NCBI GenBank assembly: GCA_016194985.1
Contig: JACQAK010000082.1
Span: 1-38,726, forward strand
DNA: 38,726 bases
Direction: 5' to 3'
Source of the DNA: Bacteroidota bacterium
Lineage (GTDB): Bacteria > Bacteroidota > Bacteroidia > B-17B0 > Aurantibacillaceae
Part shown: piece after piece, positions 1 through 15,839 of the stretch
Numbering within the stretch: the first letter of the stretch is position 1
Layout of the letters: each line of letters opens with the position of its first letter
Program-made: the position numbers and the translations under genes
The notes under the pieces: model-generated
Seen by the model: the letters and a program-made list of their open reading frames with translations, nothing else
Database searches by the model: none
Told to the model about the DNA's origin: nothing

Positions 1-7
1 TTTGCAG

Positions 8-1111
8 ATGGAGGATATAGTATTATTTAATAAGATGGGGAAAATCAAAAAAATACACTCCAGTATTCATGATTATGAAATACATTTTGAAAACGATATT
101 TCGTTTTTGAAAGATCTTTTATACATAAAAGAAGCTGTATTTATTATCGATAAACAAGTATTTGAACTTTATAAAACATCGTTTAGTATTATTGCAAATC
201 AAGAAAATGTTTTGATACTGGATGCTATTGAGGAAAATAAAACATTAACGGCTTCTGAAATAGTATTTGATAAGATCATTTCTTTAAAACCAACTAAGAA
301 AACAAAGATCATTTCGTTTGGTGGGGGTATTACACAGGATGTAAGTGGATTTGTAGCTTCAACGTTTTACAGGGGATTGAATTGGATTTATGTTCCAACA
401 ACGTTACTAGCTCAGGCTGATAGTTGCATGGGCAGTAAAACATCTTTAAACTATAAATCATATAAAAATATTTTAGGAACATTCTATCCCCCTCATCAGA
501 TTTATATTTGCCCTGAATTTACCAATACATTAACAGAAGAAGATTTTTATAGCGGTATGGGAGAAGTTGTAAAACTTCACACCATGGGAGGAAGTGAGGC
601 ATTGGATAAATTGATGATTCAATTACCAAAAATACATCAACGTGACATCCCTACTATTTTAGCCGCCACTCAATCGTCTCTGGATATTAAGTGGACTTAC
701 ATGGATGGGGATGAATTTGATCAGGGAAAACGTAATTTGTTGAATTACGGTCATGAATTTGGCCATGCTATTGAAACAGCTACTCAATACAAAATCCCTC
801 ATGGTCAGGCGATTATTATAGGAATGGTTATGGCAAATTATATTTCTTTTCAAAAGAATGCTATTTCCGAAATGACATTTGAAAAAACAGCCAATGTATT
901 CTTGGAATTATTAAAGAGTGATGTTTCTATTTTAAATAACGTTTCGGCTCAGGAAATTATAAATCCTATGAAGCAGGATAAGAAAAGAATAGGAAATCAC
1001 CTTCCGCTTATCATGATGGATGATAATTATCTCTTTACTAAGATCCTTGATTTAACAGAAGCTGAAGCAATATCAGCAATAGAATTCTTTAAAACTAATT
1101 ATTGCATATAA
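8..1111 (+). CDS. 3-dehydroquinate synthase-like sugar cyclase in a glycan cluster
   Basis: This belongs to the AroB/sugar-phosphate cyclase family, NAD- and metal-dependent enzymes that cyclise a heptulosonate or related sugar phosphate. From the ATG at 8 the protein has 367 residues, close to the family length; a TTG lies at 2 and the window edge hides anything further upstream. The NAD-binding GGG is at residues 105-107. Likely metal ligands are E186, H249 and H265, with the second histidine of GHEFGH at 253. Other residues matching the AroB catalytic set, as I recall it, are R122, D138, K144, K153, N154, K189, K228, R242 and N246. Its stop lies 1 nt before the glycosyltransferase start at 1113, so the two look co-transcribed. 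It could be true AroB or a DHQ-synthase-like enzyme for a glycan building block. The fold is certain, the substrate is not; location favours a glycan role and the residues favour DHQ-synthase chemistry. Confidence 0.8.
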   Translation: MEDIVLFNKMGKIKKIHSSIHDYEIHFENDISFLKDLLYIKEAVFIIDKQVFELYKTSFSIIANQENVLILDAIEENKTLTASEIVFDKIISLKPTKKTKIISFGGGITQDVSGFVASTFYRGLNWIYVPTTLLAQADSCMGSKTSLNYKSYKNILGTFYPPHQIYICPEFTNTLTEEDFYSGMGEVVKLHTMGGSEALDKLMIQLPKIHQRDIPTILAATQSSLDIKWTYMDGDEFDQGKRNLLNYGHEFGHAIETATQYKIPHGQAIIIGMVMANYISFQKNAISEMTFEKTANVFLELLKSDVSILNNVSAQEIINPMKQDKKRIGNHLPLIMMDDNYLFTKILDLTEAEAISAIEFFKTNYCI

Positions 1112-1112
1112 A

Positions 1113-1998
1113 TTGGAAACACAAAAAAAACATATATCTGTTTTAACAGCATGTTATAACGAAGAAGAAAATGTAGCAGCTTTAATAGAAGCTGTAGCTG
1201 CTGTTTTTAATAAAATGCCTCAATATACCTATGAGCATCTGTTTATTGATAATAGTTCTTCTGATAAAACCGTTACTATTTTAAGAGAAATTGCTAAAAC
1301 AAATAAGCATGTTAAAGTGATTGTCAATGCACGTAATTTTGGGCATATCCGCTCTCCATTTCATGGGTTGATTCAATGTAAAGGTGATGCAGTTATTTCT
1401 TTGGTAGCTGATTTTCAGGACCCGCCTGAAATGATTGAACAATTTTTAAATAAGTGGGAAGAGGGCTATAAGATAGTGATCGGGATAAAGAATAAAAGTA
1501 AAGAAAATCCTATCATGTTTGCAATTCGGAAAACGTTTTATAATCTTTTATCCAGTGTTTCGGGGAATGATGCAACGATTAAAAATTTTACCGGATTTGG
1601 ATTATATGATCAGAAATTCATTTCAGTGTTAAGAGATCTGGATGACCCATATCCTTATTTCCGGGGCCGGGGGAAAAACCAAAAATAATTTCTTTACCTT
1701 GTATGATATGGCAATGCTTGGTTTTACCAATCACTCTAAATTGCCGTTAAGATTATCAGCATTTATTGGGTTCTTCTCGGCATTAATTAGTTTGTTAATC
1801 GCGATAGGTTATTTTATTTATAAATTGATTTATTGGTATGAATTTCAGGTTGGTACTGCGCCAATGGTCATAGGAGTCTTTTTCTTTTCTTCTGTACAAT
1901 TGTTTTTTATTGGAATTATCGGTGAATATATTGGAGCCATTCATACTCAGGTTCGTAAGCGTCCACTGGTTGTTGAAAAAGAACGGATTAATTTCTAG
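1113..1998 (+). pseudogene. GtrB/DPM1-like family 2 glycosyltransferase, disrupted by a 59-nt internal deletion
   Basis: The intact paralogue at 7102-8043 shows what this gene should look like: a cytoplasmic GT-A domain (ADFQDPPE motif) and two C-terminal membrane helices, as in polyprenyl-phosphate glycosyltransferases (GtrB, ArnC, Dpm1). Here the first frame, from a TTG at 1113, stops at 1688 after DPYPYFRG. The second frame resumes at GKTKNNFF and runs to 1998 with the membrane helices. Compared with the paralogue, 59 nt between the R of YFRG and GKTKNN are missing, which changes the frame and removes about 20 residues. The junction near 1660-1675 holds two adjacent CCGGGG copies, unusual in this AT-rich DNA. 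The family would load a sugar from a nucleotide donor onto undecaprenyl phosphate. It could be real decay, tolerated because of the paralogue, or an assembly error between two similar genes. Confidence 0.85.
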
Positions 1999-2180
1999 GT
2001 GATTTGTTTTTTAGTTGTTATAACTTCTCTACGAGCAAACATCTTTGAATTTTAGCAAATAATACTTAATTTTAATATATACTCTCCCTTATTAATAATG
2101 TTTGTTCGGTATCTATTTGATTCTTTTGGAATCTATGAAATTAAATATAAATGTTTATTTTTGGGTATAGTAAATTACTT
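1999..2180. promoter_or_regulatory. Intergenic region with candidate Bacteroidota promoter
   Basis: This stretch separates the broken glycosyltransferase from the membrane glycosyltransferase. A TATTTTTG match to the Bacteroidota -7 box (TAnnTTTG) lies at 2156-2163, 17 nt before the ATG at 2181. The 13-nt string TTATTTTTGGGTA around it (2155-2167) recurs at 7071-7083 upstream of the second glycosyltransferase, which supports a promoter role. No convincing -33 TTG element was found. Such boxes also occur by chance in AT-rich DNA. Confidence 0.35.
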
Positions 2181-4125
2181 ATGTCAAAAGTGAAAACAAA
2201 AAATGCTAACGAGAATGCATTAGCAAATTATTCTAACCCTGAAAATCGAATTAAATTAATTTCTAAGATTATTTTGTATGGCTTTCTTGTTGCATCATTT
2301 TATCATTTTGTTTATCAGAGTATTCTGTTAAATAAGCCTTATCCGTTTAATACGTTTTTGTTCCTTCAATCAGATAGATTTAATGATTTTTTATCTATGC
2401 GTGATTGGTGTAAAGATTTGAATCCTTATTTTAGCCCAAATTATTTGGGTAATAGTAATTATCTTCCGATCGCAAATTTATTTTTTTTTCTTTTTCTCAT
2501 TTATTCCTCAAAAAGTATCTTTATTCCTTTTTGTAGTTTTATTTTCTGGATTGATTTATTTGTTTACTTATTTAAGTTTGGGATTTATTCGGGAGAAAAA
2601 TAATAGACATAAATTGACATTTATTATTACTTTTCTTAGTTATGCGTATTTGTATTGTCTAGATAGGGCTAATTTGGAACCAGTTGTAGCAATACTAATT
2701 ATGGCTTTTTTTTATTTTTATAAAAAAGAGAAGCATATTATTGCTATTTTATTTTTGGCACTTGCGGCTGCAACTAAAATTTATCCGATTCTATTTGTAT
2801 TAATTTATGTTTCTGATAAACGATATAAAGAAGCAGCTATGGTAATAATTGGTACATTTTTATTTATATTGTTCCCTTTAATCTTTCAGCAGGGTGGATT
2901 TGAGAAAAATTTATTTTTTATTTTAAATGGGTTTGAGTTAGATACAAATGTTTCTTCCTTTCAAGGAGCTTTCGAAGATAAAGGAAATTATATGCTTCAA
3001 GGTTCAAGTTTATTTTCAGTATATAAGATACTCAATATTAAGATGAATTTGCATTCACAAAATATGCTAACAAAGTATTTTATATTTGTTGGGTTATTGG
3101 CTTTAATTTCTGTTTTTTATACTGTGTTTATAGAGAAAATTTTGTGGAAAAAAGTTACGATACTCACATGTTTAATTATTGTATTGCCGCATATTTCTTT
3201 TGATTATAAACTTATTCATGTTTTATATTGCGTTTATTTATTTATTAATGAAACAAAGTCAGAATTTGACCAAAAATTGAATTATAAAGTAATATCTATA
3301 TTGTTTGGAGTGATTCTAATTCCAAAATCTTACGTGTATTTTAGTAAAATTTTAACAACTACAACTGCTCAAAATGATGTTCCTCTTGGAACATTCTTTA
3401 ATCCAATTTTAATGATTATTTTATGTACTATTATTATTGTAAATGGGCTAAAGGAGTATGGTTTTTCCAATATTAGATCAGAGATTTCGGATCATATACG
3501 AGCAATTAAAAAGTCAATTGTTTATATTGGATTTATTTTGGTATTGGTAATTCCATATTATAGTTATTCAAAAAAAGCAAAGGAAAATTATTTTGAGTTC
3601 AAACGAAACTATATGTTATCCCAAGAAAATTTTTCTAAGGGGGATAAAAAGCAGGGTTTAAAAAATCTAATTTCATCTTTTAATTGTAAACCGTATAAAT
3701 TTCAAATAGCACTTCAAATTGCTAATACTTATTCTGAATTTGGAAAATATGATTCAGCTATTGTCTTTTTTAATAAGGCACTGCAGATTTTCCCAGGATG
3801 CGATGCTGCGGTTTCAGGAATTTTATCTATTCAAGTAAATACAGGAAATGCAAATGCGATAGAAGCTCTTAATTTGAAAAAATATGAAGAAGCAGAGATT
3901 TTGTTCAATAATACAATTGAACGCTTTTATAAATTGCCCTCTAATCCAAATAATAACGCTTTTTTGATAGGTTTGTATTCTAATTTGACAGTAGCTTTAA
4001 TTAATGAGAAAAAATGGACTGAAGCTTATAAAATATTAAATAAAATTAGTGAATTGGATCCTAATAATGAATTTTTAAAATCAAATTTACCATATGTAAA
4101 TTCGATGCTTAAACTGAAAAATTAA
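2181..4125 (+). pseudogene. GT87-like (DUF2029) membrane glycosyltransferase with C-terminal TPR-like repeats, frameshifted at a T9 tract
   Basis: Two overlapping frames together encode one polytopic membrane protein of about 647 residues. The first frame (ATG at 2181; another in frame at 2151) ends at 2603. The second frame is open from before the poly-T tract to 4125. The switch falls naturally at the nine-T run 2481-2489; one base fewer would join the frames. Many hydrophobic helices, an Arg-Ala-Asn loop and a Lys-Ile-Tyr-Pro motif between helices resemble GT87 (DUF2029) polyprenyl-phosphate-dependent GT-C enzymes. The last 180 or so residues are soluble and TPR-like (for example FGKYDSAIVFFNKAL). 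A GT-C enzyme here could use the lipid-linked sugar made by the GtrB-like enzymes; that is inference. The frameshift may be a sequencing error, a mutation or a slippage switch. Family assignment is moderate. Confidence 0.65.
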
Positions 4126-4140
4126 AGAAACTATAATTAA

Positions 4141-5871
4141 TTATGTTCCTTCCATTTCAGTTGGTTTTGAGTGAGGTTCCATTTCTGTAATTGGTTTTCC
4201 GAATGCTATTTTAGGATATGTATTGGTTTTTGAATCAATCATAACCTGCAGGAGTACAGGATTATCTTTGTTTTCGGAATTCCACATCCATTTTATTGCA
4301 TTTTCAGCATCATCATAGTTTGAAATTGTTTTAGCTTTTATTTGATAAGCTAATGCTATAAATTCAAAATTTGGAGCTGAGTATCCCCAGCAAGTTGATT
4401 GATAGCGTGATTCAAAATATGAATCTTGAAATTGACGGATCATTCCTAAATTTTCATTATTTAGTACAACAATTTTAATTGGTAATTTATTTCTAACAAT
4501 TGTTTGTAATTCTTGAATATTTATTTGCATACATCCGTCACCAATTATAGCAACAACTGGTTTTTTATTCAAAGCAAAACATGCTCCAATTGCGGCAGGT
4601 AGGGCAAAACCCATTGCACCCATTCCTCCCGAAGTTAAAAAAGTTTGATTAGTGTTGATTTCTAAAGATTGTGCTGCCCACATTTGATGAGAACCTACAT
4701 CTGCCAAAAATGATAAAGAATCATGACTACAAGAAGATAAAAGATGAATGAATTTATTTGGATTGATTCCCACACAATCTAATTCTTTTGTATCAGGCCA
4801 TTTAGTTTTTAAATTGGAGATATATGTTATCCAATTTGCTTTAGCTTCAAATTCAATGTTCTTAGAAATGGAAATAAATTCTGAAAAAAATACTTTTGCA
4901 TCACAGACTATGGGAATACAATTTTTAATTCTATTGCTTATTTCATTTTCATTGCAATCAACATGATATATTTCCCTATTTTCAAAAAACACTGTATCGG
5001 CACCAGTTTGTCTAATATCTAGCCTGCTTCCAACTGCGATAATTAAATCAGATTCTCCAAAAGCAATATTTGCCCACCTATTGCCATAACTTCCAATAAA
5101 GCCAACTCTTTGGGGATGATTATAACTAATAGCATCTAAAGCTAATAATGAAGTTACAACGGGGATTTTTGTTTTAGTTAAAAACTCATTTAATTCTTTT
5201 GATGCAAAAGATGCTTTAACACCTCTGCCTACAATTATTATAGGCGATTTACTTACTCGTATGGAGTTAATTAAATTATTTATTTGTGTATCAATATTAA
5301 CTTTACATTTTGTAAAATCAATTTCTGTAGCGTCTTTATATGGGTCAGAATCAATTTGGGCACGTTGTATATCCATTGGTATGTCTATTAGAACAGGCCC
5401 GGGCCTATCCTGAGAGACAATATGAAATGCCTCTTTAAAAACAAGAGGAATTTCTTTTGCATCTTTTATCTGGTAACATTTTTTTGTTAAAGGTTTTGCA
5501 ATAGAAACTATATCCGTTTCTTGAAATCCTAATTGGCGAATTTGTTTCTCACCTTTTAATTCATGTCTGTTTACTTGTCCTGTTATAAAAATGCCAGGTA
5601 CGGAATCAAAATAACAGCTTCCTATACCTGTAATTAAGTTAGTGGCACCAGGACCGCTTGTAGCCAATGCAACACCTGGTTTACCGGTGATTCTACCATA
5701 AGCATCTGCTGCAAACGCTGCGCTTTGCTCATGGTGCATAGAAATTATATTTATTTTAGTTGTTTGATTTAATGAATCTAAAATATTAGTAATCATTCCT
5801 CCTGAGAGTTCAAAAACATAATCTATTTTTTTTGCTTCTAAAAATTTTGCAATATAATCCGAAACTTTCAT
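4141..5871 (-). CDS. ThDP-dependent acetolactate synthase-like enzyme, candidate YerE-type two-carbon transferase
   Basis: The 576-residue protein has the three-domain layout of acetohydroxyacid synthase-type ThDP enzymes. The N-terminal Pyr domain carries the activating glutamate E48 in MHHEQSAAFAADAYGR. The central domain spans roughly residues 195-335. The C-terminal PP domain has the metal/ThDP motif GDG at 444-446, followed 24 residues later by NN at 471-472. The start is ATG at 5871, 5 nt after the stop of the upstream SDR gene with an AAGGCG-like ribosome site, so the two form an operon. Ordinary IlvB would sit with ilvD/ilvN/ilvC; here the neighbours are rfbF, rfbG and rfbH. In yersiniose biosynthesis YerE, a ThDP flavoprotein of this family, adds a two-carbon unit from pyruvate to CDP-4-keto-3,6-dideoxyglucose. 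I infer the same kind of role. Family certain, substrate inferred. Confidence 0.85.
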   Translation of the reverse strand: MKVSDYIAKFLEAKKIDYVFELSGGMITNILDSLNQTTKINIISMHHEQSAAFAADAYGRITGKPGVALATSGPGATNLITGIGSCYFDSVPGIFITGQVNRHELKGEKQIRQLGFQETDIVSIAKPLTKKCYQIKDAKEIPLVFKEAFHIVSQDRPGPVLIDIPMDIQRAQIDSDPYKDATEIDFTKCKVNIDTQINNLINSIRVSKSPIIIVGRGVKASFASKELNEFLTKTKIPVVTSLLALDAISYNHPQRVGFIGSYGNRWANIAFGESDLIIAVGSRLDIRQTGADTVFFENREIYHVDCNENEISNRIKNCIPIVCDAKVFFSEFISISKNIEFEAKANWITYISNLKTKWPDTKELDCVGINPNKFIHLLSSCSHDSLSFLADVGSHQMWAAQSLEINTNQTFLTSGGMGAMGFALPAAIGACFALNKKPVVAIIGDGCMQINIQELQTIVRNKLPIKIVVLNNENLGMIRQFQDSYFESRYQSTCWGYSAPNFEFIALAYQIKAKTISNYDDAENAIKWMWNSENKDNPVLLQVMIDSKTNTYPKIAFGKPITEMEPHSKPTEMEGT

Positions 5872-5876
5872 ACGCC

Positions 5877-6920
5877 TTAATCTTTAATAATGGGTTCATA
5901 TTGGTAAAAATCGATAGTACGTTTAATCGAGGTAGTTAAATCATAGTTAACATTTAATTTTAATTCACTTTTAGCTTTTTGAATGTCTGGAATATATTTA
6001 TTGCCCTCTGTACAGGCCATTTTGCTTTTAATATCGATATTTAAATTCTTTTTAGTGATTTGAATTATTAAATCTGCTAAATTTTTAATGCTTATTTCTT
6101 CATCAGATCCAACATTGTATGGATCAGCATTTTTACCATTTAAAAGTATTTTTATTAACCATATTATCAAATCAGCAGTGTATAAATAAGATCTATAGGC
6201 GGTGCCGTCACCTGATATTTTTAAATCTTCGTTTCTAATTACATTTTTTATAAAATTACCAATGGCAAATTGCCCGTTTAGTGGAATAAAAGGCCCAACA
6301 AAGCAAAAACATCTAGCAATTTTAACGTTAACTAAATCTTTGGTGTTATAAATATAAGAAAGCATTTCAGAAATTTTTTTTCCTTCAGAATAACAAGCGC
6401 CAAGTGAATAAATGTTGGAACTGCCTCTAAAATCTTCAGAAAATGGGATTTTATTGTGAATGGGTTCTCCATAAATAGCTCCTGAGCTTATATTTAAAAT
6501 AGTTGCTTTTTTATATTTTGCTAATTCTAAGACATGTTTAGTGCCATTTACAATAGATTCGTAAATTGATAGAGGGTCACTTATAAATAAACTATAATTC
6601 ACGTCTGTGGCGGCATGAATAATATAATCAATGGAATCAGATGGGTAATTAAAATTTTTTACATCTCCTGTTATAAATTTAAAATTCTGATTATTAAATT
6701 GAGGGTATTCTTTTAAAAATACTTCAGGATTTCTGGAGAGTATAATTACTTTTATATTGAAATTTTCAAGTGTATTTAGGTAAAGAAAATAGTTTAAAAA
6801 GCATTTGCCAAAAAAACCAGTACCTCCAGTAATAAATATAGTTTTGAAATTTAATTGTTGGTTTTCAGAAATCAATCTTGTTGAAATAAAACTGCAATCT
6901 TGTTTTAGTATTTGATTCAT
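5877..6920 (-). CDS. Extended SDR NAD-dependent epimerase/dehydratase/reductase, candidate YerF-like step
   Basis: This is an extended short-chain dehydrogenase/reductase of the sugar-nucleotide epimerase/dehydratase class. From the ATG at 6920 it has 347 residues; a TTG at 6941 would add seven. The Rossmann motif TGGTGFFG is at residues 31-38. The catalytic pair is Y177 and K181 (YSEGK), preceded by an ISSGAIYGEP strand with the catalytic serine. The C-terminal substrate domain keeps RSYLYTADL and YNVGSDEEISIKNLA. It is the first gene of a two-gene minus-strand operon with the ThDP enzyme. In the yersiniose pathway the YerE product is reduced by YerF, so a 4-keto reductase or epimerase role is plausible. 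Overall it also resembles dTDP-glucose 4,6-dehydratases and UDP-glucuronate decarboxylases, so the exact reaction cannot be read from sequence. Confidence 0.8.
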   Translation of the reverse strand: MNQILKQDCSFISTRLISENQQLNFKTIFITGGTGFFGKCFLNYFLYLNTLENFNIKVIILSRNPEVFLKEYPQFNNQNFKFITGDVKNFNYPSDSIDYIIHAATDVNYSLFISDPLSIYESIVNGTKHVLELAKYKKATILNISSGAIYGEPIHNKIPFSEDFRGSSNIYSLGACYSEGKKISEMLSYIYNTKDLVNVKIARCFCFVGPFIPLNGQFAIGNFIKNVIRNEDLKISGDGTAYRSYLYTADLIIWLIKILLNGKNADPYNVGSDEEISIKNLADLIIQITKKNLNIDIKSKMACTEGNKYIPDIQKAKSELKLNVNYDLTTSIKRTIDFYQYEPIIKD

Positions 6921-7101
6921 TAAAATTGATGTTTTAAACAAAAAGTGAGGTTATTATTTACTAACGACAAAAGTTATAACAATATACCTCAAAAATATAA
7001 AATTATTTTGTTTTTATGTTATTGGTTAATAATATATTACTTGGTGAATATGTTTTTTAATATAATAATGTTATTTTTGGGTAAAATAAATAATAAAATT
7101 T
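6921..7101. promoter_or_regulatory. Divergent promoter region of the SDR-ThDP operon and the second glycosyltransferase
   Basis: This very AT-rich stretch separates oppositely transcribed units. A TATTTTTG box at 7072-7079 lies 22 nt before the GTG start of the glycosyltransferase and sits in the same TTATTTTTGGGTA context as at 2155-2167. A possible TTG element at 7041-7043 is farther upstream than usual. No clear box was found for the minus-strand operon. A 64-codon ORF across this region looks spurious. Confidence 0.35.
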
Positions 7102-8043
7102 GTGAAAAAGCTTATATCGGTTCTTACGCCATGCTATAACGAAAAAGATAATGTAGAACCACTATCTATTGAAGTATCTAAGGTTTTTGAAAAATATCCT
7201 CAATATGATTATGAACATATTTTTATTGATAATGATTCAACGGATGGGACTTTAGAAATTTTAATGAACATCGCAGAAAGAGATAAAAATGTGAAAATTA
7301 TTATGAATGCTCGTAATTTTGGTCATATTCGATCTCCATTCTATGGGATGCTTCAATGTCAGGGAGATGCGGTAATTTCTATGGTTGCAGATTTTCAAGA
7401 CCCCCCAGAATTGATTCATGAGTTTATAAAAAAATGGGAAGAGGGTTTTAAAATTGTTATTGGTGTGAAAGCCGAAAGCAAAGAAAATCCATTGATGTTT
7501 GCCGTAAGAAAATTTTTTTACAGTTTATTAAGCAAGGCTTCTGAAAGTTCAGGAGAATCGCCTGTTAAAAATTTTTCCGGATTTGGATTATATGACAAAC
7601 AATTTATTGCGGTTTTAAGAACCCTGGAGGACCCATACCCTTATTTTAGAGGTATGATTACAGAACTAGGATTTAATCGCTTTGAAGTGCCTTATATTCA
7701 GCCAGAGAGAGCATCTGGTAAAACTAAAAATAATTTTTTTACATTGTATGACATTGCAATGTTAGGATTTACTAATCATTCAAAACTACCTCTTCGATTA
7801 TCAGCATTTATCGGCTTTTTTTCTGCAATTATCAGCTTTATAGCTGCATTGGGATATTTCCTTTATAAATTGATTTTTTGGGATTTTTTTCAGGTAGGTA
7901 TGGCACCTTTGGTTATTGGCGTTTTTTTCTTTTCGTCGGTTCAATTATTTTTTATTGGGATTATTGGGGAATATATTGGAGCAATACACACTCAAATAAG
8001 AAAACGCCCTTTAGTTATAGAAAAGGGTAGGGTGAATTTTTAA
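7102..8043 (+). CDS. GtrB/DPM1-like family 2 polyprenyl-phosphate glycosyltransferase
   Basis: The 313-residue protein starts with GTG at 7102; the residues after it (KKLISVLTPCYNE) are the normal first strand of a GT-A fold. The FIDNDSTDGT loop and ADFQDPPE (residues 96-103) are the nucleotide-sugar and metal-binding motifs. The cytoplasmic domain is followed by two strongly hydrophobic helices at about 230-258 and 265-290 and a short basic tail, as in GtrB, ArnC and Dpm1-like enzymes. These transfer a sugar to undecaprenyl phosphate on the inner face of the cytoplasmic membrane. It is the intact paralogue of the gene at 1113-1998; the last 90 residues are almost the same in both. It sits 15 nt before rfbF and likely shares its transcript. 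The donor sugar is unknown. Confidence 0.88.
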   Translation: MKKLISVLTPCYNEKDNVEPLSIEVSKVFEKYPQYDYEHIFIDNDSTDGTLEILMNIAERDKNVKIIMNARNFGHIRSPFYGMLQCQGDAVISMVADFQDPPELIHEFIKKWEEGFKIVIGVKAESKENPLMFAVRKFFYSLLSKASESSGESPVKNFSGFGLYDKQFIAVLRTLEDPYPYFRGMITELGFNRFEVPYIQPERASGKTKNNFFTLYDIAMLGFTNHSKLPLRLSAFIGFFSAIISFIAALGYFLYKLIFWDFFQVGMAPLVIGVFFFSSVQLFFIGIIGEYIGAIHTQIRKRPLVIEKGRVNF

Positions 8044-8058
8044 ATATAATTTTGATAT

Positions 8059-8838
8059 ATGAAAGTAGTAATATTAGCAGGGGGCTTAGGTACTAGGTTA
8101 GCTGAAGAAACGGATGTTAGACCAAAACCAATGGTTGAAATTGGAGGAAGGCCTATTATATGGCATATCATGAAAATATATAGCCATTATGGTTATAACG
8201 ATTTTATTGTATGTTGTGGATATAAAGGGTATGTTATTAAGGAATATTTTGCTAATTATTTTTTGCACCAAACGGATGTTACAATTGATTTGGCAAATAA
8301 TAAAATGGAAGTGCACAAATCCGGTTCAGAAAACTGGAAGGTAACTCTAGTAGATACTGGGGTGAATACCAATACTGCAGGAAGGATTAAACGTATTCAA
8401 AAATATATTGGTGATGAAGCGTTTATGCTTACTTATGGAGATGGAGTTGCGAATGTTGATATTTCTGAGCTTATCAATTTTCATAAATCTCAGGGTAAAT
8501 TGGCGACATTGTCTTCCATTCAATTGCCTGGTAGGTTTGGTAATATTGAAACAAATACAGAAGGGGTTGTTACTTCTTTTCAGGAAAAACCTCAGGGGGA
8601 CGGTATGTGGATTAATGGGGGCTTTTTTGTGCTTGAGAATAAAATATTTGATTATTTAAAGGGAGATATGGACTCTATTCAATGGGAAAAAGTTCCGTTA
8701 ATTCAAATTGCAAATGATGGGCAACTTTCAGCATTTAAACATAATGGTTTTTGGAAATGTATGGATGCAATTCGAGATAAGATAGAATTAGAAGAACTTT
8801 GGGGATCTTCAAAAGCCGAATGGAAGATTTGGGAATAA
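8059..8838 (+). CDS. rfbF: Glucose-1-phosphate cytidylyltransferase
   Basis: RfbF (also DdhA/AscA) makes CDP-glucose and diphosphate from CTP and glucose 1-phosphate, the entry step to CDP-dideoxysugars. The 259-residue protein matches the usual family length. The nucleotidyltransferase signature starts at residue 8 (GGLGTRL) and is followed by RPKPM with K23. Later motifs include the metal-binding [10 protein letters not shown] segment and the [16 protein letters not shown] segment typical of cytidylyltransferases of this group. It follows the glycosyltransferase by 15 nt and precedes rfbG by an unusually long 189-nt gap. Together with rfbG and rfbH it defines a CDP-sugar pathway rather than a dTDP one. 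Confidence 0.93.
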
Positions 8839-9027
8839 TATTTAATGAGCTTCTATATTTAAAAGGCTAAATGTATTTTGTATTTTAAATTTTTTTGATG
8901 ATTTATAAAATAAATGCATTTTATCTTTTTTTATTTGAAGTTTATTAAAAATCAGAGCTTTTGTCTTTAGAAATAATCAAAATTTTTATATCAATGAATT
9001 AAAAGTTCAGCAAACAATTTATACAAA
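8839..9027 (+). other. Long AT-rich spacer between rfbF and rfbG
   Basis: These 189 nt interrupt an otherwise tightly packed gene set. They are very AT-rich, with several T tracts, and no ORF of interest, hairpin or clear TAnnTTTG box was found. It may hold an internal promoter that I cannot identify. Confidence 0.4.
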
Positions 9028-9908
9028 ATGCTAGATTTATTTAATAATACTTACCAAAACAAAAAGATACTGGTAACCGGAGATACCGGATTTAAGGGGT
9101 CTTGGATGTGTATTTGGTTAAAAGAATTAGGTGCTGATGTATACGGGTACGCGCTACCGCCATTAACAGAGAAAGATAACTTTAAAACAACAAAATTGTC
9201 GGATGTAATTAAACATAAGGATGGCGATGTGAGGGATAAAGATCAATTAATGGCATACTTTAATTTAGTAAAACCGGATATAGCATTTCATTTAGCGGCC
9301 CAGCCTCTCGTTATTGAATCATATAATAATCCTCATTATAACTTTGAAACCAATTTAATGGGAACGGTTAACTTTTTTGAGGCGGTTAGAAATTGCCCTT
9401 CTGTTAAAGTAGCCATCAATGTTACAACAGATAAGTGCTATCAGAATAATGAGTGGATGTGGGGTTACAGAGAGAATGATGCGATGGGAGGAGATGATCC
9501 ATATAGCGCATCAAAAGGTTGTTCGGAATTAATTACCAATTCATATATCAAATCTTTTTTCACGAAAGATAATACTGCTCATGTGGCTTCAGGACGAGCA
9601 GGAAATGTGATTGGTGGCGGCGATTGGGCAGACAAGAAAATTATAGTGTGGGGGATGTTGTAAATGAAGTAAAGAAAATAGTTCCTTCCATAAAAATTGA
9701 TGCACCAAAAGTAACCGAAAAATTACACGAAGCAGGTTTGTTAAAACTAGATATTACCAAAGCCGTTAATCTGTTGGGATGGAAGCCAAAGTTAAATTTT
9801 GAAGAAACTATACAATTTACAATAGATGGTTATTTGGAAGAACTGGAGGCTGATCAAAATATTTACAAGTGTAGAGTAAAACAAATAGAAGCGTATTGCA
9901 ATAAATAA
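9028..9908 (+). pseudogene. rfbG: CDP-glucose 4,6-dehydratase, interrupted by an internal deletion and frame change
   Basis: RfbG (DdhB/AscB) converts CDP-glucose to CDP-4-keto-6-deoxyglucose. The first frame (ATG 9028, 211 codons) carries the Rossmann motif TGDTGFKG (17-24), TDK at 134-136, the catalytic Y159 and K163 in YSASK, and the family hallmark GNVIGGGDWAD. It then reads through unrelated codons and stops at 9663. The second frame resumes near 9645 with NYSVGDVVNEV and ends normally at 9908 with HEAGLLKLDITKA and LLGWKP. Intact relatives are about 360 residues with roughly 63-65 residues between DWAD and this helix, including the RPWQHVLEP and WNFGP motifs; none are present here. The simplest reading is a deletion of about 190-200 nt that is not a multiple of three. 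If real, this gene cannot supply the pathway. Confidence 0.88.
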
Positions 9909-9962
9909 AGTCAACTATTCAAAACTGATTTTTTCAGTTTTAAAAATAAAAAACAACAGATT

Positions 9963-11270
9963 ATGTCAAAACTTTTAGATATTAAACACCAGATACATTC
10001 TTTAATTAAAGAATACCATGATGAAGCTTTTAAAACAAAAACGTTTATAGAAGGAGAATCAAATGTTCCTGTTAGTGGTAAAGTGTTTGATCATAGAGAG
10101 TTACAATATATCACAGATTCTGCTTTAGATGCGTGGTTTACTACCGGAAAATTTAACGCCGAATTTGAGAAGAAGTTAGCCAAGTATATTAACGTTAAAT
10201 CGGTGTTAACCGTAAATTCAGGCTCGTCTGCTAACCTGGTTGCATTTTCGGCATTAACTGCTAAAGAACTTGGAGAAGAAGCAATTAAACCGGGGGACGA
10301 GGTTATTACTGTAACAGCTTCTTTCCCCACAACCGTTAATCCTATTTTACAATATGGTGCTATTCCTGTTTTTTTGGATGTTACCATACCTCACTATGAA
10401 ATTGATGTGACCTATCTGGAAAAAGCGTTGTCGCATAAAACCAAAGCCGTTGTGATAGCTCATACCATGGGCAATGTGTTTAATTTAGATGCCATTACAG
10501 CATTTTGTGAAAAGCATGATCTGTGGTTAATGGAAGATTGCTGCGATGCCTTAGGGGCGACCTATAATGGTAAACATGTAGGCACCTTTGGAGATATTGC
10601 TACATTGAGTTTTTATCCGGCGCATCATATTACGATGGGGGAGGGTGGAGCCGTGTTTACATCCAATTCTAAACTGAAAAAAATTGCTGAATCATTCAGG
10701 GATTGGGGACGTGATTGCTGGTGTGAGCCAGGGAAAGATAACACCTGTGGTTTACGCTTTTGTCAGCAATTAGGCGATTTGCCAATGGGGTATGATCACA
10801 AATATATTTATTCGCGTCAGGGGTTTAATTTAAAAATTACTGATATGCAGGCTGCGCTTGGTTTGGCGCAACTTGAAAAATTAGATGAGTTTGTGAAAAT
10901 CAGAAGACATAATTTTGATTTATTAAAACAAACATTAGCAAAGCATACAAACAAATTAATATTACCTGAAGCTACTCCTAATTCTAATCCATCCTGGTTT
11001 GGTTTTTTAATTACTGTTAAAAAAGACGCCGGTATTACCCGTAATGATTTGGTACAGAAATTAAATGATAAAAAGGTAGCAACCCGTTTGTTATTTGCCG
11101 GAGATTTAAGAAAACAACCGTACTTTAAAGACTATGATTATCGTATTGTTGGAGATTTACCAAATACCGATATTATAGTGAGTGATACCTTTTGGATTGG
11201 TGTTACGCCAATGATTAATGACGACATGATTGCCTATATGGGCAAATGTTTTGATGAGATTTTGGGTTAA
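9963..11270 (+). CDS. rfbH: CDP-6-deoxy-L-threo-D-glycero-4-hexulose 3-dehydrase (E1), PLP and [2Fe-2S] enzyme
   Basis: RfbH (DdhC/AscC) removes the C-3 hydroxyl of CDP-4-keto-6-deoxyglucose using PMP and a [2Fe-2S] cluster, the key step to 3,6-dideoxysugars. The 435 residues match the family. The aminotransferase-fold lysine is replaced by histidine H221 in [14 protein letters not shown], which marks a dehydrase rather than a transaminase. Four cysteines, C194, C252, C254 and C262, give exactly C-X57-C-X-C-X7-C, the cluster-binding pattern of the Yersinia E1 enzyme. E1 needs electrons from the reductase E3 (AscD/DdhD); no such gene is visible nearby, so it may be elsewhere or replaced by general reductases. 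It lies 54 nt after the broken rfbG and appears intact. Confidence 0.95.
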
Positions 11271-11457
11271 TTATATGATAGCAAAAGTGTAAAATGTTGA
11301 ATGATTCTCTAGTATTTGTTAAAAATTCTAAACCATTATATAACTGCTTATTCATTTTGTGCTAAAAATCATTTTATCGGTATATAATTAAGCTAAAATT
11401 ATAGTACTTTTAATAAAGGTAATTTTGTCAAAGAGTTTACTCTTTATAATCAAATCT
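11271..11457 (+). promoter_or_regulatory. Upstream region of the T9SS type B protein with TAnnTTTG box
   Basis: A TAATTTTG match to the Bacteroidota -7 promoter box lies at 11420-11427, 30 nt before the ATG at 11458. No terminator hairpin for the sugar cluster is evident, and no good -33 element was seen. Support is modest because such boxes arise by chance in AT-rich sequence. Confidence 0.35.
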
Positions 11458-14400
11458 ATGCGTTTTATTATACTATTTCTGCTTTGTATTAAATTATCTC
11501 TATCTCAAAATTTAGTGGTGAATGGCGATTTCAGTGCTGGTAATACAGGCTTTTTTACAAATTATACATATTGCAATACTGGTAATTGTCTTTTCCCATT
11601 TGTTGATGATGCCTATTCTATAGGCACAAATCCAAATTTTTTCCATTCAGTTTTTCAAGGAATGGATCACACAACAGGTGCCGGGAATATGATGATCTTT
11701 AATGGAGGAATAGCTTCATATTCGGCATGGAGCCAAACAATCACAGTACTTCCTTCTCAGACATATTCATTATCTATTTGGGCTTGCTCTGTATATACAA
11801 ACAATATAGCTAAACTTAATTTTTCTATAAATGGAGTTAGTGTTGGAACATTAACGCCAAGTAGTTCTGTAAATATCTGGACCCAATTTTCTGCTACTTG
11901 GACTTCAAATTCTAATACAACGGCAGTTATTAGAATAAATACTTTAAATACGGTGGGATCTAATGCTGGTGTTGATTTTGGGTTGGATGACATTGAATTT
12001 AAATTATTGCCACCTATTACCCCTTTATGCTCTGGTAATTTAGGTTTGCCTGTTTTTTTGGAAGATTTCGGATCAGGAGCAGCATTATATGGTCCTGCTT
12101 TACCTGTCGGAGTTACTAATTATCCTTATTATACAGGCGTTCCTATTAACGGGGTTTATTGTATTTCTGGTACTGGAAACCCCGCTAATGTTATTGGGTA
12201 TGTTGATGGACCTGATCATACCGGAAATAGTAATGGGTATATGATGGTTGTAAATGCAGATTATGGCCCTAGTGAAGTATATCGAAAACATGTTACAGGA
12301 CTTTGTCCTAATACGACGTATGTTTTCTCTTCTTATCTGGCAAACAATAATACTCAAAATCCGGGTGTTACAAATTGTGGTGGGAGTTATATTTACGCTA
12401 ACGTTAAATTTCAAATTGAATACCCGTTAGGAACAGTTCAAAATTCAGTCGCTACAGGAAATTTAGCAGTTGCCTCAACACATACTGCATTTGTATGGGG
12501 ACAATATGGTTTTGTATTTACAACTCTGCCTTCTCAAACGAGTGTAGATATTGTTTTAATTAATAACGCTCCCGGTGGTTGTGGCAATGATTATGTAGTT
12601 GATGATATTACTTTGTCTCCCTGTGGCCCGGGAGTTGGTTTAACTTTATTGCCAAATAAAACAACTTTTTGTCCCGGAGAATCTATGATTTTGCAATCTA
12701 ATTTTACATCCGGTGGATACACAAATCCTGAATATCAATGGCAATACAGTAATGATGGGGGAAATACTTGGACAAATATTATAGGGGCTACCTCTCAAAA
12801 TTATAGCATTACTTCTGTTACTAATTCTCAATCAGGGACATATCGCTTGCTTGTTGCCGAAAATGGTAATGTAAATCTGACCTCTTGTCGAATTATTGCA
12901 GGACCTTTGAGTTTTACGGTTTCTAATAATTTTTTAACAGCAGCTTCTCCAACCATTTGTCCCAATGCAATTACGACATTAACTGTTACTGGAGCTGTAA
13001 CATATACCTGGAGTAATGGCTCTAATACCAGTTCAATAACGGTTAATCCTTCTATAACAACCACATATAGCGTTATTGGTACAATAGGAACTTGTAGTGC
13101 ACAAGCAACTTTAACTGTGAGTGTAATTCCTCTAACGCCAATAACGGTAACAGGCAACACTATCATTTGCAACGGTGGAAGTACTTTGTTAAATGCCAAT
13201 GGCGCTAATTCGTATTTATGGAGTACCGGAATAAATAATTCTAGCATCAGTCTTACGCCATCTGTAACAACTACTTACAGTGTTATAGGAACTTCTAATA
13301 CATGTACAAATACAGCAATTGTGACAGTGAGTGTTTTACCAAGCCCTTTACTTGTTGTGAGTCCAAATACAGGTATATGTGCAGGCTTATTGAGTCCGGT
13401 TACTTTAACTGTTAGCGGATCAGATTCTTATACATGGGCTAATTCAAATTCTCTTTCCTCTTCAACAGGTGCATCAGTTGTTGCATCTCCAACTACTACC
13501 ACCACATATACAGTCACCGGAACAACAGGATTGTGTACTAATACAGCCATTGTTACAGTTAGCATTATTCCTTCTCCGGTTATTTTGTCAACTATAGTAG
13601 ATAATACAAGCTGTGGATTAAACAATGGTTCTGCTACAGTTACTGCAACTCCAGCCAGTAATACGTATAGTTGGACAGGAGTAGTTTCAACTACAAATGT
13701 GGCAGGTAATTTACCCCCCGGTAATTATACAGTAACAGCTATAAATGGAATTTGTCAGACGTCTACAGTGCTCACCATTTCAGGATCAATTCCATTATTA
13801 ATAACATCAAGTTCAATTACCCCATCCAATTGCAATGCAAATAATGGATCAATATCCGTAACAGATAATTTAACAGGTAGCAATTATCATTGGAGCCCCG
13901 GGATTTCTTCCAATTCTAATACTATTTTTAATTTATCACCGGGTAATTATTCCTTAACAATTGTAAATGGAGCATGTACCACTTCAACTACAATATCTGT
14001 TGTCACAATAGGAGGCCCTACAGCGATGAGTGTAATAAGTAAAAATGCCAGTTGTAGAAATGATAGTGGACGTATTGATATTACGAATGTTATTAATGGG
14101 GTTTCTCCCTTTCTTTATAACTTAAATAATTCCGTTTTTTTATCTACATCGTCATTTACTAATCTTTCACAGGGGGTATATACCATAAGCGTAAAAGATG
14201 CTAATACATGTCTTCTAACTCAAACAATTTCTATTTCTCAAGCAACAGTTAATTTAACAACAGAAATCATAACAAACTCCCCCAATTGTTTAGATAATGA
14301 TGGTGCTTTTATTATTAATAAAATATCAGGAGGGAAACCACCCTATTTGCTAAGTTTTAATAATACTCCATATACCCAAAATACAACATTCGAGGCATTG

Positions 14401-14757
14401 AGCGTAGGAATCTATACTTTAGCAATTAAAGATTCTAATGCTTGTGTTAATCAATTAATTTTAAATATGCCGGGAAATAATGGAGATTATATTTTATATA
14501 TACCTAACACATTTACCCCAAATAATGATCATAAAAATGATGTGTGGTATGTACAAGGCGCTTGTTTAGGAGAGTTTCATTGCTATATCTATAACCGATG
14601 GGGTGAAAAACTACATGAAATAAAAGATATTACTGAAGGTTGGGATGGAAGATATAAAGGAGCAGCAGTTCCTGATGGAGTTTATGTATATGTCTTAGAA
14701 GTTGAGACAGCTACCGGAATTGTTAATAAAGCAGGACATATAGTTTTGTTAAGATAA
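11458..14757 (+). CDS. Large exported adhesin-like protein with Ig-like and SprB-like repeats and a T9SS type B sorting domain
   Basis: The protein has 1099 residues from the ATG at 11458; an in-frame TTG at 11425 is less likely because the ATG begins a clean signal peptide (MRFIILFLLCIKLSLSQ). Two jelly-roll, carbohydrate-binding-like modules (about 18-185 and 195-395, each ending in a VDD/LDDI motif) come first. An Ig-like domain follows (about 400-490, ending SGTYRLLV). Then come three repeats of about 70 residues with the pattern TYTWSN...TTTYSVIGT, and several SprB-like repeats (GNYTVTA, GVYTISVKD). The last 90 residues contain IPNTFTPNNDHKND, YNRWGEK and GWDGRYKG, the hallmark of the gliding-motility-associated type B C-terminal domain. 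It is therefore predicted to cross the outer membrane by T9SS and stay at the surface. No catalytic domain is recognised. Confidence 0.85.
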   Translation: MRFIILFLLCIKLSLSQNLVVNGDFSAGNTGFFTNYTYCNTGNCLFPFVDDAYSIGTNPNFFHSVFQGMDHTTGAGNMMIFNGGIASYSAWSQTITVLPSQTYSLSIWACSVYTNNIAKLNFSINGVSVGTLTPSSSVNIWTQFSATWTSNSNTTAVIRINTLNTVGSNAGVDFGLDDIEFKLLPPITPLCSGNLGLPVFLEDFGSGAALYGPALPVGVTNYPYYTGVPINGVYCISGTGNPANVIGYVDGPDHTGNSNGYMMVVNADYGPSEVYRKHVTGLCPNTTYVFSSYLANNNTQNPGVTNCGGSYIYANVKFQIEYPLGTVQNSVATGNLAVASTHTAFVWGQYGFVFTTLPSQTSVDIVLINNAPGGCGNDYVVDDITLSPCGPGVGLTLLPNKTTFCPGESMILQSNFTSGGYTNPEYQWQYSNDGGNTWTNIIGATSQNYSITSVTNSQSGTYRLLVAENGNVNLTSCRIIAGPLSFTVSNNFLTAASPTICPNAITTLTVTGAVTYTWSNGSNTSSITVNPSITTTYSVIGTIGTCSAQATLTVSVIPLTPITVTGNTIICNGGSTLLNANGANSYLWSTGINNSSISLTPSVTTTYSVIGTSNTCTNTAIVTVSVLPSPLLVVSPNTGICAGLLSPVTLTVSGSDSYTWANSNSLSSSTGASVVASPTTTTTYTVTGTTGLCTNTAIVTVSIIPSPVILSTIVDNTSCGLNNGSATVTATPASNTYSWTGVVSTTNVAGNLPPGNYTVTAINGICQTSTVLTISGSIPLLITSSSITPSNCNANNGSISVTDNLTGSNYHWSPGISSNSNTIFNLSPGNYSLTIVNGACTTSTTISVVTIGGPTAMSVISKNASCRNDSGRIDITNVINGVSPFLYNLNNSVFLSTSSFTNLSQGVYTISVKDANTCLLTQTISISQATVNLTTEIITNSPNCLDNDGAFIINKISGGKPPYLLSFNNTPYTQNTTFEALSVGIYTLAIKDSNACVNQLILNMPGNNGDYILYIPNTFTPNNDHKNDVWYVQGACLGEFHCYIYNRWGEKLHEIKDITEGWDGRYKGAAVPDGVYVYVLEVETATGIVNKAGHIVLLR

Positions 14758-14861
14758 TAATTAAACATATTTGACGACTGATTTGTGCTAAAAATACTTT
14801 TTACGGTAGGTAGTTATATTTTATTAATACTAAATTTGATAAATATAAAACTCTGTATACT
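14758..14861 (+). promoter_or_regulatory. Upstream region of the LamG-like T9SS protein with TAnnTTTG box
   Basis: A TAAATTTG match to the Bacteroidota -7 box is at 14831-14838, 23 nt before the ATG at 14862. This suggests the second secreted protein has its own promoter. No strong terminator for the preceding gene was found. Confidence 0.38.
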
Positions 14862-15839
14862 ATGAAATGTAAATTAGTAAGCTGTTTCTTATTGCTAAAT
14901 ATCGTTTTGTTGGCGCAGGTACCTACAAATTCATTATCGGCTTATTATCCCTTTAATAATAATACCTTAGATTATATAGGTACAAGACATGGTGTTTCAG
15001 CAGGAGTTGCCCAATATGGAACAGATCGTTGGGGTACCCCTAACGCTTGCTATGATGTAGTGGATAATACTAATTATATTAATTTACCTTCCGACAATTG
15101 GATTCATGGAGATTATAGTATAAGTGCCTGGGTAAATGTTAAACAAGTAATGTCTTATCCACGATTATATGATTTTTCTAATGGTTATATGATTAATGAT
15201 GCAGTTGGAGAATTGTCACATTCCGGGTCAGGGCATGTTGGTCCGGCTATGGGATATTGCGTAAATTCATCTACAGAATCTCATTATTTTAGTATGAATG
15301 CTTTGAGTTTGAATGATTGGCATCATGTTGTATATATATCATCAGGAACTCAAATGCAAATTTATGTAGATAATGTTTTGGATGGTTCAATTATAGGAAA
15401 TTGTACCCCCGAAAATGTTTATAGAGTTCATAATAAAATAGGTGGTAGTAATGCCCCTTTAAATGATGCTACTAAGGCATACATAGATGATTTTAGGTTA
15501 TATGACAGAGCCATTACTCCCGAAGAAGTTGGTCAGTTGTTTTATGAACCTCAAAGCTCGGTTGGCGTTCATGAATATAAAACTTTAATAGAACATTTAA
15601 CAATTTCTCCAAATCCGTCCTCAGATTTCTTAAATGTCGATTTTTTATCTGATTCGGATAAAGAGACTGTTATTGAACTATTTGATAATATAGGAAAGTC
15701 ATTATCTGTTCACAAATATCCCACTGTAGTTGGTCAAAATAAAATGGTAGTTGCGCTCGATAATTTAGCGGCAGGCTTCTACCATTTAACTATTTCTACC
15801 AATAGTAAAAGTCAGAATATGAAATTTGTTAAAAATTAA
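14862..15839 (+). CDS. Exported LamG/concanavalin-like domain protein with T9SS type A sorting domain
   Basis: The 325-residue protein starts with a signal peptide (MKCKLVSCFLLLNIVLLAQ). Residues about 20-215 form a LamG/concanavalin A-like module, shown by LSAYYPFNNNTLDYIG near the start, NDWHHVVYISSG in the middle and YIDDFRLYDRAITPEEV at the end. The final 85 residues (ISPNPSSDFLNVDF, then LAAGFYHLTISTNSKSQNMKFVKN) match the T9SS type A C-terminal domain, so the protein is probably secreted through T9SS and anchored on the surface. It follows the type B cargo in the same direction. A glycan- or protein-binding role is likely for LamG; the ligand is unknown. Confidence 0.85.
   Translation: MKCKLVSCFLLLNIVLLAQVPTNSLSAYYPFNNNTLDYIGTRHGVSAGVAQYGTDRWGTPNACYDVVDNTNYINLPSDNWIHGDYSISAWVNVKQVMSYPRLYDFSNGYMINDAVGELSHSGSGHVGPAMGYCVNSSTESHYFSMNALSLNDWHHVVYISSGTQMQIYVDNVLDGSIIGNCTPENVYRVHNKIGGSNAPLNDATKAYIDDFRLYDRAITPEEVGQLFYEPQSSVGVHEYKTLIEHLTISPNPSSDFLNVDFLSDSDKETVIELFDNIGKSLSVHKYPTVVGQNKMVVALDNLAAGFYHLTISTNSKSQNMKFVKN

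Follow-up and report, generated by a model that had tools for sequence, protein, structure and literature searches.

The window analysed here is a stretch of 38,726 nucleotides that makes up one whole contig (G000:C76; GenBank JACQAK010000082.1) of the draft genome of a Bacteroidota bacterium (4.23 Mb in 236 contigs, 94% complete). Its region 4141–11270 probably encodes a pathway to a CDP-activated, C4-branched 3,6-dideoxysugar, in which a YerE-type thiamine diphosphate (ThDP) enzyme and an adjoining short-chain dehydrogenase/reductase (SDR) would build the branch, a GtrB-like glycosyltransferase (GT; GTB below) would transfer the sugar and the ThDP enzyme appears to be exchanged in relatives. 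The SDR and ThDP genes form a pair on the minus strand with a gap of 5 bp between them, and the genes for GTB, RfbF, RfbG and RfbH lie on the plus strand (Table 1). A sequence-only reading of this region had placed all of the genes that it named correctly, including rfbFGH beside the minus-strand pair, but it overlooked that rfbG is broken and left GTB, which lies between the two halves, out of its reasoning. Its pathway claim holds as far as the YerE-type enzyme with rfbF, rfbG and rfbH is concerned; the trunk, however, is not intact, with rfbG broken and no PF00175 reductase in the assembly. In the following, G### denotes genomes, L### denotes fetched loci and 'sister' refers to the corresponding genes or loci of relatives.

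The conversion of glucose-1-phosphate to CDP-4-keto-3,6-dideoxyglucose by RfbF, RfbG and RfbH is established family chemistry, and YerE-like enzymes make chiral tertiary alcohols. RfbF, RfbG and RfbH would thus supply CDP-4-keto-3,6-dideoxyglucose, the YerE-type enzyme would decarboxylate pyruvate and place the acetyl unit on C4 and the adjoining SDR would reduce the branch ketone to give a yersiniose-like CDP-octose, which we infer to be the final sugar. Judging from their families, the GtrB-like enzyme would load the sugar onto polyprenyl phosphate, from which a GT-C membrane enzyme (GT87- or YfhO-type) would transfer it to an extracytoplasmic acceptor. Relatives would keep the rfbFGH trunk and exchange the branch-making ThDP enzyme.

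The gene content resembles that of the yersiniose pathway of Yersinia pseudotuberculosis O:VI (ddhABCD, yerE and yerF), homologues of which are described for Pseudomonas WCS417 in an excerpt of PMC4509608: rfbFGH correspond to ddhABC, the ThDP enzyme is of YerE type and an SDR adjoins it. It differs in that no ddhD/E3 gene was found, rfbG is broken, a GtrB-like polyprenyl-phosphate GT is part of the locus and the SDR family of the window (sdrB1) is not established as YerF; the ketoreduction step of yersiniose is itself called uncharacterised as of 2016 in a passage of PMC4753412. The sequence-only reading had remarked that the orientation departs from that in Yersinia and yet the gene logic fits, and this stands: the SDR and GTB genes are divergent in all nine family loci that have the pair, so the odd orientation is no weakness. 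The minus-strand orientation as an argument against a joint pathway was rejected on the same count. Literature searches pairing yersiniose with Flavobacterium found nothing, and those pairing it with Bacteroidetes found only work on Vibrio fischeri. An in silico study of YerE-like genes was reportedly published by Krug in 2024. According to a section of a review (PMC12247030), the sugar structure is unreported for the vast majority of more than 200 YerE-like candidates.

ThDP enzyme, reductase and glycosyltransferase

The closest solved relative of the ThDP enzyme is 5ahk (445 bits, compared with 329 for E. coli IlvB and 311 for a plant acetohydroxyacid synthase, AHAS). We take 5ahk to be the YerE of P. 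protegens (PpYerE) and 8rph to be JanthE. Both labels fit the review: its Val479 corresponds to chain residue 499 of 5ahk, as it would with an N-terminal tag of 20 residues, and the CDG motif that it gives for JanthE is present in 8rph. In the main tree (39 rows chosen from the 57 of a wider tree) the window enzyme and 5ahk belong to a YerE group (96/85), JanthE-type enzymes form a second group (100/100) and AHAS stand separately (100/99); in the wider tree the YerE group including 5ahk has an SH-aLRT support of 91. A later tree of 28 rows joins 5ahk to the Bacteroidota protein of L180 (100/100), and the two are sister to the group of the window enzyme (100/98). The window enzyme lies outside the JanthE (8rph) clade and reads GDG at the position of the CDG motif. 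All 41 YerE-group rows carry Phe481, where six of the seven AHAS rows carry Trp, and all 41 carry Arg112-Gln113, where the seven AHAS rows have a gap; the window enzyme thus shares with PpYerE its clade, the Phe at the AHAS Trp site and the same insert. The genome's own IlvB falls in the AHAS clade and is encoded on contig C228, where the neighbouring genes look by eye like ilvD and ilvE. The score against TIGR00118 (AHAS) is 518.5, below the cut-off of 538.35. The sequence-only reading had considered IlvB unlikely and had looked to a phylogeny against YerE and IlvB; the grouping with 5ahk (under its presumed label), apart from AHAS, bears it out. It is well supported by these comparisons that the gene encodes a YerE-type enzyme, predicted to act on CDP-4-keto-3,6-dideoxyglucose. 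Relatives found on plasmids (125 records) and phages (37 records) were all less than 60% identical, and the 40 and 20 listed, respectively, are acetolactate synthases or unannotated; a search for gammaproteobacterial YerE neighbours matched one of 369 genomes, which is a Legionella locus already in the set.

The linkage to rfbFGH recurs among relatives. The set of 81 YerE-type loci used here consists of the 80 top-ranking of 200 relatives detected on genome contigs, to which the window and two loci of the family were added and from which two duplicates (L026 and L074, copies of L022 and L023) were removed. By their record titles these come from Bacteroidota, Legionellaceae, Verrucomicrobia, Chloroflexi, Acidobacteria, Planctomycetota and others. 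rfbH is present in 70 of them, rfbG in 67, rfbF in 64 and all three in 62. The YerE-type gene of L104 was detected by tblastn and is absent from the clusters of open reading frames (ORFs). In 59 of 80 loci the gene immediately upstream of yerE, on the same strand, encodes an SDR; near yerE, one SDR of two clusters occurs in 70 of 80 loci, none in ten and two in no locus. Over the whole locus (n = 80; cluster members in L058, L060 and L070, distant UXS-like proteins by eye, were set aside), the SDR is of type sdrA in 48, sdrB1 (the window type) in 11, sdrB2 in nine and unclassified sdrB in four, and eight have none, such that the window type is not the commonest SDR beside YerE-like genes. Among cultured strains, Niastella sp. 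OAS944 (L030) carries the window-type SDR, and Mucilaginibacter psychrotolerans (L028) and a second Mucilaginibacter (L029) carry the other SDR.

The active-site residues of the window SDR (Ser143/144, Tyr175 and Lys179) are invariant in 12 aligned relatives. The family comparison covers 21 loci, namely the window and 20 rfb loci fetched out of 30 other genomes with rfbH (four of the 20 were extended to longer stretches). Nine of the 21 carry sdrB and all nine have a ThDP C–C enzyme, compared with one of the 12 loci without sdrB (kinship not corrected); 11 of these 12 have no ThDP enzyme in the fetched stretch, and in G079 a JanthE-type gene lies further left. A profile of twelve sdrB proteins, which contains no ThDP information, was run against 395 Bacteroidota genomes (up to five candidates scored in each, E 1e-75). 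Besides the window, five loci gave best matches of 315–481 bits, each of them with rfbG, rfbH and a ThDP gene (of the JanthE clade in four and of the YerE clade in one); three loci with weaker matches (259–275 bits) are without rfbG, rfbH or a ThDP enzyme. The strong matches therefore suggest that this SDR family serves branch-making ThDP enzymes. Since a ketone on the new branch is common to the products expected of three kinds of ThDP enzyme (see below), the window SDR is proposed to be a branch-ketone reductase.

By full-length similarity, GTB is a predicted GtrB-type polyprenyl-phosphate GT: it matches 5ekp (sll0501), which we take to be GtrB, with 164 bits over residues 5–306 of 313, and ArnC with 97 bits. 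It scores 174 bits against the PgfS model NF047588, below the cut-off of 500. Close GTB homologues (at least 68% identical) occur in all ten family loci with a ThDP enzyme and in none of the 11 without (kinship not corrected). In the YerE-type set, a GtrB-like gene is found in eight of 11 sdrB1 loci compared with seven of 69 others (p = 3e-5, kinship not corrected; five of the eight are Legionellaceae). In G065, an SDR fused to a GtrB/PgfS-like GT (L023 7022–8971) directly follows the YerE-type gene, the fused SDR not being of sdrB type, and a YfhO-type protein precedes an rfbH-like gene. A YfhO protein of G069 matches PgfM2 below its cut-off, so that the locus resembles Pgf systems in both its GT and the G069 membrane protein but differs in that all PgfS and PgfM matches are below cut-off. 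GTB, the G065 fusion and the YfhO-type proteins together suggest that the sugar is carried on polyprenyl phosphate, and hence that branched sugars can ride on this carrier and be added outside the cytoplasm.

Apparent exchange of the ThDP enzyme in related loci

The divergent sdrB and GTB genes with rfbFGH are found in the window and in eight of the 20 fetched family loci. The ThDP slot is filled by the YerE-type enzyme in the window, by a JanthE-type enzyme in six loci (L149, L150, L155, L161, L162 and L163; L161 and L162 have the same protein and L155 is from another genus) and by a split transketolase in two (L148 and L151). Five of the six JanthE-type loci also have a cupin, a PfpI-like protein and a second nucleotidyltransferase, and L150 and L161 have an HpaI-like aldolase. 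The genes aroQ and xerD flank the locus in the window, L148 (transketolase), L150 (JanthE-type), L147 and L153 (both with an RmlC-like epimerase) and L154, and this recurrence indicates one chromosomal place; in the other family loci these flanks are outside the fetched stretch or absent. Of the 12 loci without sdrB, seven have the RmlC-like epimerase, six of these with an SDR of one cluster, an arrangement that may recall ascarylose. G084 and G078 have rfbFGH at the same place, beside aroQ and xerD, with the epimerase and an SDR, as would an ascarylose-type locus, but no ThDP enzyme within the fetched stretch; the name of the product is conjectural.

The N-terminal half of the split transketolase was detected in two of 87 family genomes (E 1e-75), and its nearest solved relative is 6yak, a split-chain transketolase. 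Downstream of rfbH, L149 has two further transketolase halves that are more distantly related (starts 12406 and 14830; 32–33% identity). Another contig (L022) of G069, the source of L148, opens with what by eye are remnants of the ends of transketolase, YfhO and SDR genes (L022 1–642), followed by an intact YerE-type gene; these remnants are possibly scars of cassette exchange. For the miharamycin and amipurimycin pathways, split transketolases have been proposed to attach a hydroxyacetyl unit to a keto sugar, and a section of the review counts 13 candidate sequences of branch-making transketolases, all from Streptomycetes, inferred from gene clusters and with function pending (PMC12247030). 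The transketolases of L148 and L151 are likewise split, but they belong to a Bacteroidota glycan locus with rfbFGH, in sister loci and not in the window itself.

We tentatively suggest, as a reading somewhat short of probable, that one CDP-4-keto-3,6-dideoxyglucose locus serves as a plug-in site for a YerE-type enzyme (acetyl), a JanthE-type enzyme (longer branch, in some loci with an aldolase) or a split transketolase (hydroxyacetyl), all accompanied by a related SDR and a closely similar GtrB-like GT, so that the surface sugar is diversified by swapping the branch. If this is true, the split transketolase would extend branch-making enzymes of its kind beyond Streptomycetes. Its position beside a CDP-dideoxysugar operon, outside the group to which the review confines such enzymes, is the leading lead of this analysis, and relatives with a constant rfbFGH trunk and differing ThDP enzymes are matched cases for testing the branch made by each.

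A second ThDP enzyme probably belongs to the locus of the window. Contig C155 of the same assembly and the beginning of the window both map to a single stretch of G079, where they meet within 3 bp (C155 1–3859 to L187 13556–9690; window 1–1660 to 13554–15216). C155 (L025 1–3324) carries a JanthE-type gene (8rph, 398 bits), an HpcH/HpaI-like aldolase (PF03328) and, by eye, an SDR, and from the synteny with G079 the locus therefore likely continues to the left into these three genes before the cyclase at the window start (Table 1). C155 is thus most likely the left neighbour of the window, which would place two branch-making ThDP enzymes in one locus. In L105 (Prolixibacteraceae), a JanthE-type and a YerE-type gene stand in one locus (5668–7470 and 10001–11704), a further instance of two branch-makers in close proximity.

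Integrity of the trunk and competing explanations

Several observations weigh against the proposed pathway, among them the state of rfbG. Its match to TIGR02622 covers only profile positions 2–204 of 352: the first 206 codons end at 9645, sister genes matching up to codon ~208, and some 90 C-terminal codons are found in a different frame from 9636. Sister RfbG proteins likewise align in two pieces, the first reaching 9645 and the second beginning at 9633 or later. Relative to each of six sister genes measured, 59 codons are missing, out of frame. The assembly has no second rfbG, the two other matches being partial and 33–34% identical. RfbH is of E1 type and not of ColD type (586 bits for 3bcx, 195 for the ColD-type 2gms), and its SFYPAHH segment (with His in place of the pyridoxal phosphate lysine) and its Cys stretch align to 3bcx. 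The ddhABCD set includes an E3 reductase (ddhD); the assembly has no PF00175 reductase, and an E3 query found only a 100-aa ferredoxin-like match in it. Among YerE-type loci, E3 genes accompany 29 of the 48 of sdrA type, and E3 genes of two clusters lie near none of the 11 of sdrB1 type. Eight genomes were searched whole with the E3 query, of which six gave near full-length matches (30–53%) and two gave partial, weak matches only. SpnQ, a related dehydrase, can reportedly work with general ferredoxin or flavodoxin reductases. With rfbG broken and no E3 reductase found, either this strain may make no such sugar or its assembly contains an error.

The interruption at rfbG lies either in the strain or in its assembly, and decay and misassembly may both fit. 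In one alternative the cluster is decaying, with rfbG, the second GT and the GT87-like gene as genuine pseudogenes and the sugar absent or made only with an outside source of CDP-sugar; we consider this possible but less likely than not. Consistent with decay, these three broken genes lie within 9 kb, compared with six genes at 15.9–23.6 kb that have a sister match and are all whole (97–100% of the sister protein covered), and a 7-bp stretch in sister rfbG is common to both edges of the part missing from the window gene. The YerE-type, SDR, GTB, rfbF and rfbH genes are nevertheless whole by sister comparison, which would be odd for a dead pathway, and in a draft of this many contigs variable glycan loci may be prone to misassembly.

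The specificity of the ThDP enzyme is a further point. It is only 41% identical to 5ahk, which has a long branch in the tree and belongs to a sister subgroup, so that its use of substrate is only predicted. A section of the review describes JanthE and ErwE as YerE-like ThDP enzymes that accept ketones, ErwE using 4-hydroxy-2-oxo acids and not pyruvate (PMC12247030), and JanthE-type genes fill the corresponding slot in sister loci. That the window enzyme, like ErwE, uses a longer hydroxylated 2-oxo acid supplied by the neighbouring HpcH/HpaI-like aldolase, giving a longer branch, is unlikely, even though the synteny with G079 places the C155 aldolase next to the window. This aldolase adjoins its own JanthE-type enzyme. 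The window enzyme differs from JanthE in clade and motif and has no aldolase of its own. Neither of two queried aldolases has a homologue among the ORFs of the YerE-type set (81 loci), compared with homologues in five of 13 loci with a JanthE-type gene (own C155, G079, L150, L161 and L183); the lack of an aldolase in YerE-type loci fits pyruvate as the donor.

The link between the SDR, the ThDP enzyme and the trunk also has weak points. The window SDR shares 46–50% identity with the SDRs of L148 and L149 and only 28–32% with the six others counted, and one shared SDR function for the sdrB group is therefore an assumption. G065, which is outside the 21 family loci, has a YerE-type gene without sdrB and without a close GTB (30%). 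rfbH occurs in 31 of 87 family genomes (E 1e-55; that of G065 is only 34% identical) and the YerE type in three of 87; within the genus, 17 of 20 genomes have rfbH and only two of 20 the YerE type. Nearness to rfbFGH alone is weak evidence here, because most members of the genus have rfbFGH without a YerE-type enzyme. It might follow, also from the presence of a cyclase gene on the same contig, that another keto sugar, or a cyclitol from the adjacent cyclase cassette, is the substrate of the SDR and ThDP enzyme and that the proximity of rfbFGH is due to chance. This is quite improbable in view of the 62 YerE-type loci with all three rfb genes; the cyclase was matched in none of the 80 YerE-type loci searched (E 1e-10), and in G065 the rfbH-like gene directly precedes the YerE-type gene. 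Finally, an ordinary AHAS copy, suggested by the top NCBIfam names, is hardly credible, as the score is under the cut-off in each of the 25 models listed out of 55, Phe is aligned with the Trp of 3e9y and most AHAS rows, no ilv genes adjoin and tree, residues and context all led us to reject this identity.

Coordinates and neighbouring features

Table 1. Features of the branched-sugar locus and its surroundings; coordinates refer to the window unless a fetched locus is given.
Feature	Position	Strand	Basis or remark
AroB-related cyclase, neighbouring cassette	2–1111	+	TIGR04425 402.8 bits (cut-off 400); G079 gene order identical
Second GtrB-like GT, broken	1113–1998	+	~59 bp short compared with G079
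Membrane GT87-like protein with TPR tail, frame-broken	2151–4125	+	PF09594 and TPR on 2551–4125; G079 sister protein 654 aa
YerE-type ThDP enzyme, 576 aa	4141–5871	-	Pfam TPP_enzyme N/M/C; 5ahk 445 bits
Extended SDR sdrB1, 345 aa	5877–6914	-	Pfam Epimerase; TTG start at 6941 gives 354 aa
Divergent intergenic region SDR/GT, 160 bp	6942–7101		Divergent pair in 9/9 family loci with both genes
GtrB/PgfS-like polyprenyl-phosphate GT (GTB)	7102–8043	+	5ekp 164 bits; PF00535
rfbF, glucose-1-phosphate cytidylyltransferase	8059–8838	+	TIGR02623 414 bits (cut-off 300)
rfbG, CDP-glucose 4,6-dehydratase, 5' piece, broken	9028–9663	+	TIGR02622 299 bits (cut-off 278)
rfbG 3' piece, different frame	9636–9908	+	Comparison with sister genes
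rfbH, CDP-4-keto-6-deoxyglucose 3-dehydrase, E1 type	9963–11270	+	NF011936 707 bits (cut-off 423)
Split transketolase halves	L148 83–1006, 1009–1812	-	Beside SDR and GTB-rfbFGH
Split transketolase halves	L151 13835–14638, 14641–15564	+	Beside SDR and GTB-rfbFGH

The G+C content per kb is 26–34% in the first 10 kb and 30–40% in most of the remainder, the first 10 kb thus being at or below the level of the rest. The window contains 22 promoter-like sites (22.1 expected) and five terminator-like sites (1.4 expected). A promoter pattern that we assume to be typical of Bacteroidota matches once in the window (27295; 0.55 expected) and not in the locus. The first gene of the window encodes a putative sugar phosphate cyclase inside the glycan locus, with a TIGR04425 score barely above the cut-off. 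Beyond rfbH, window 11425–14757 encodes a large repetitive secreted protein, the C-terminal domain of which resembles the gliding-motility type by eye, and counterparts of this protein stand at the equivalent place in L151 and L153.

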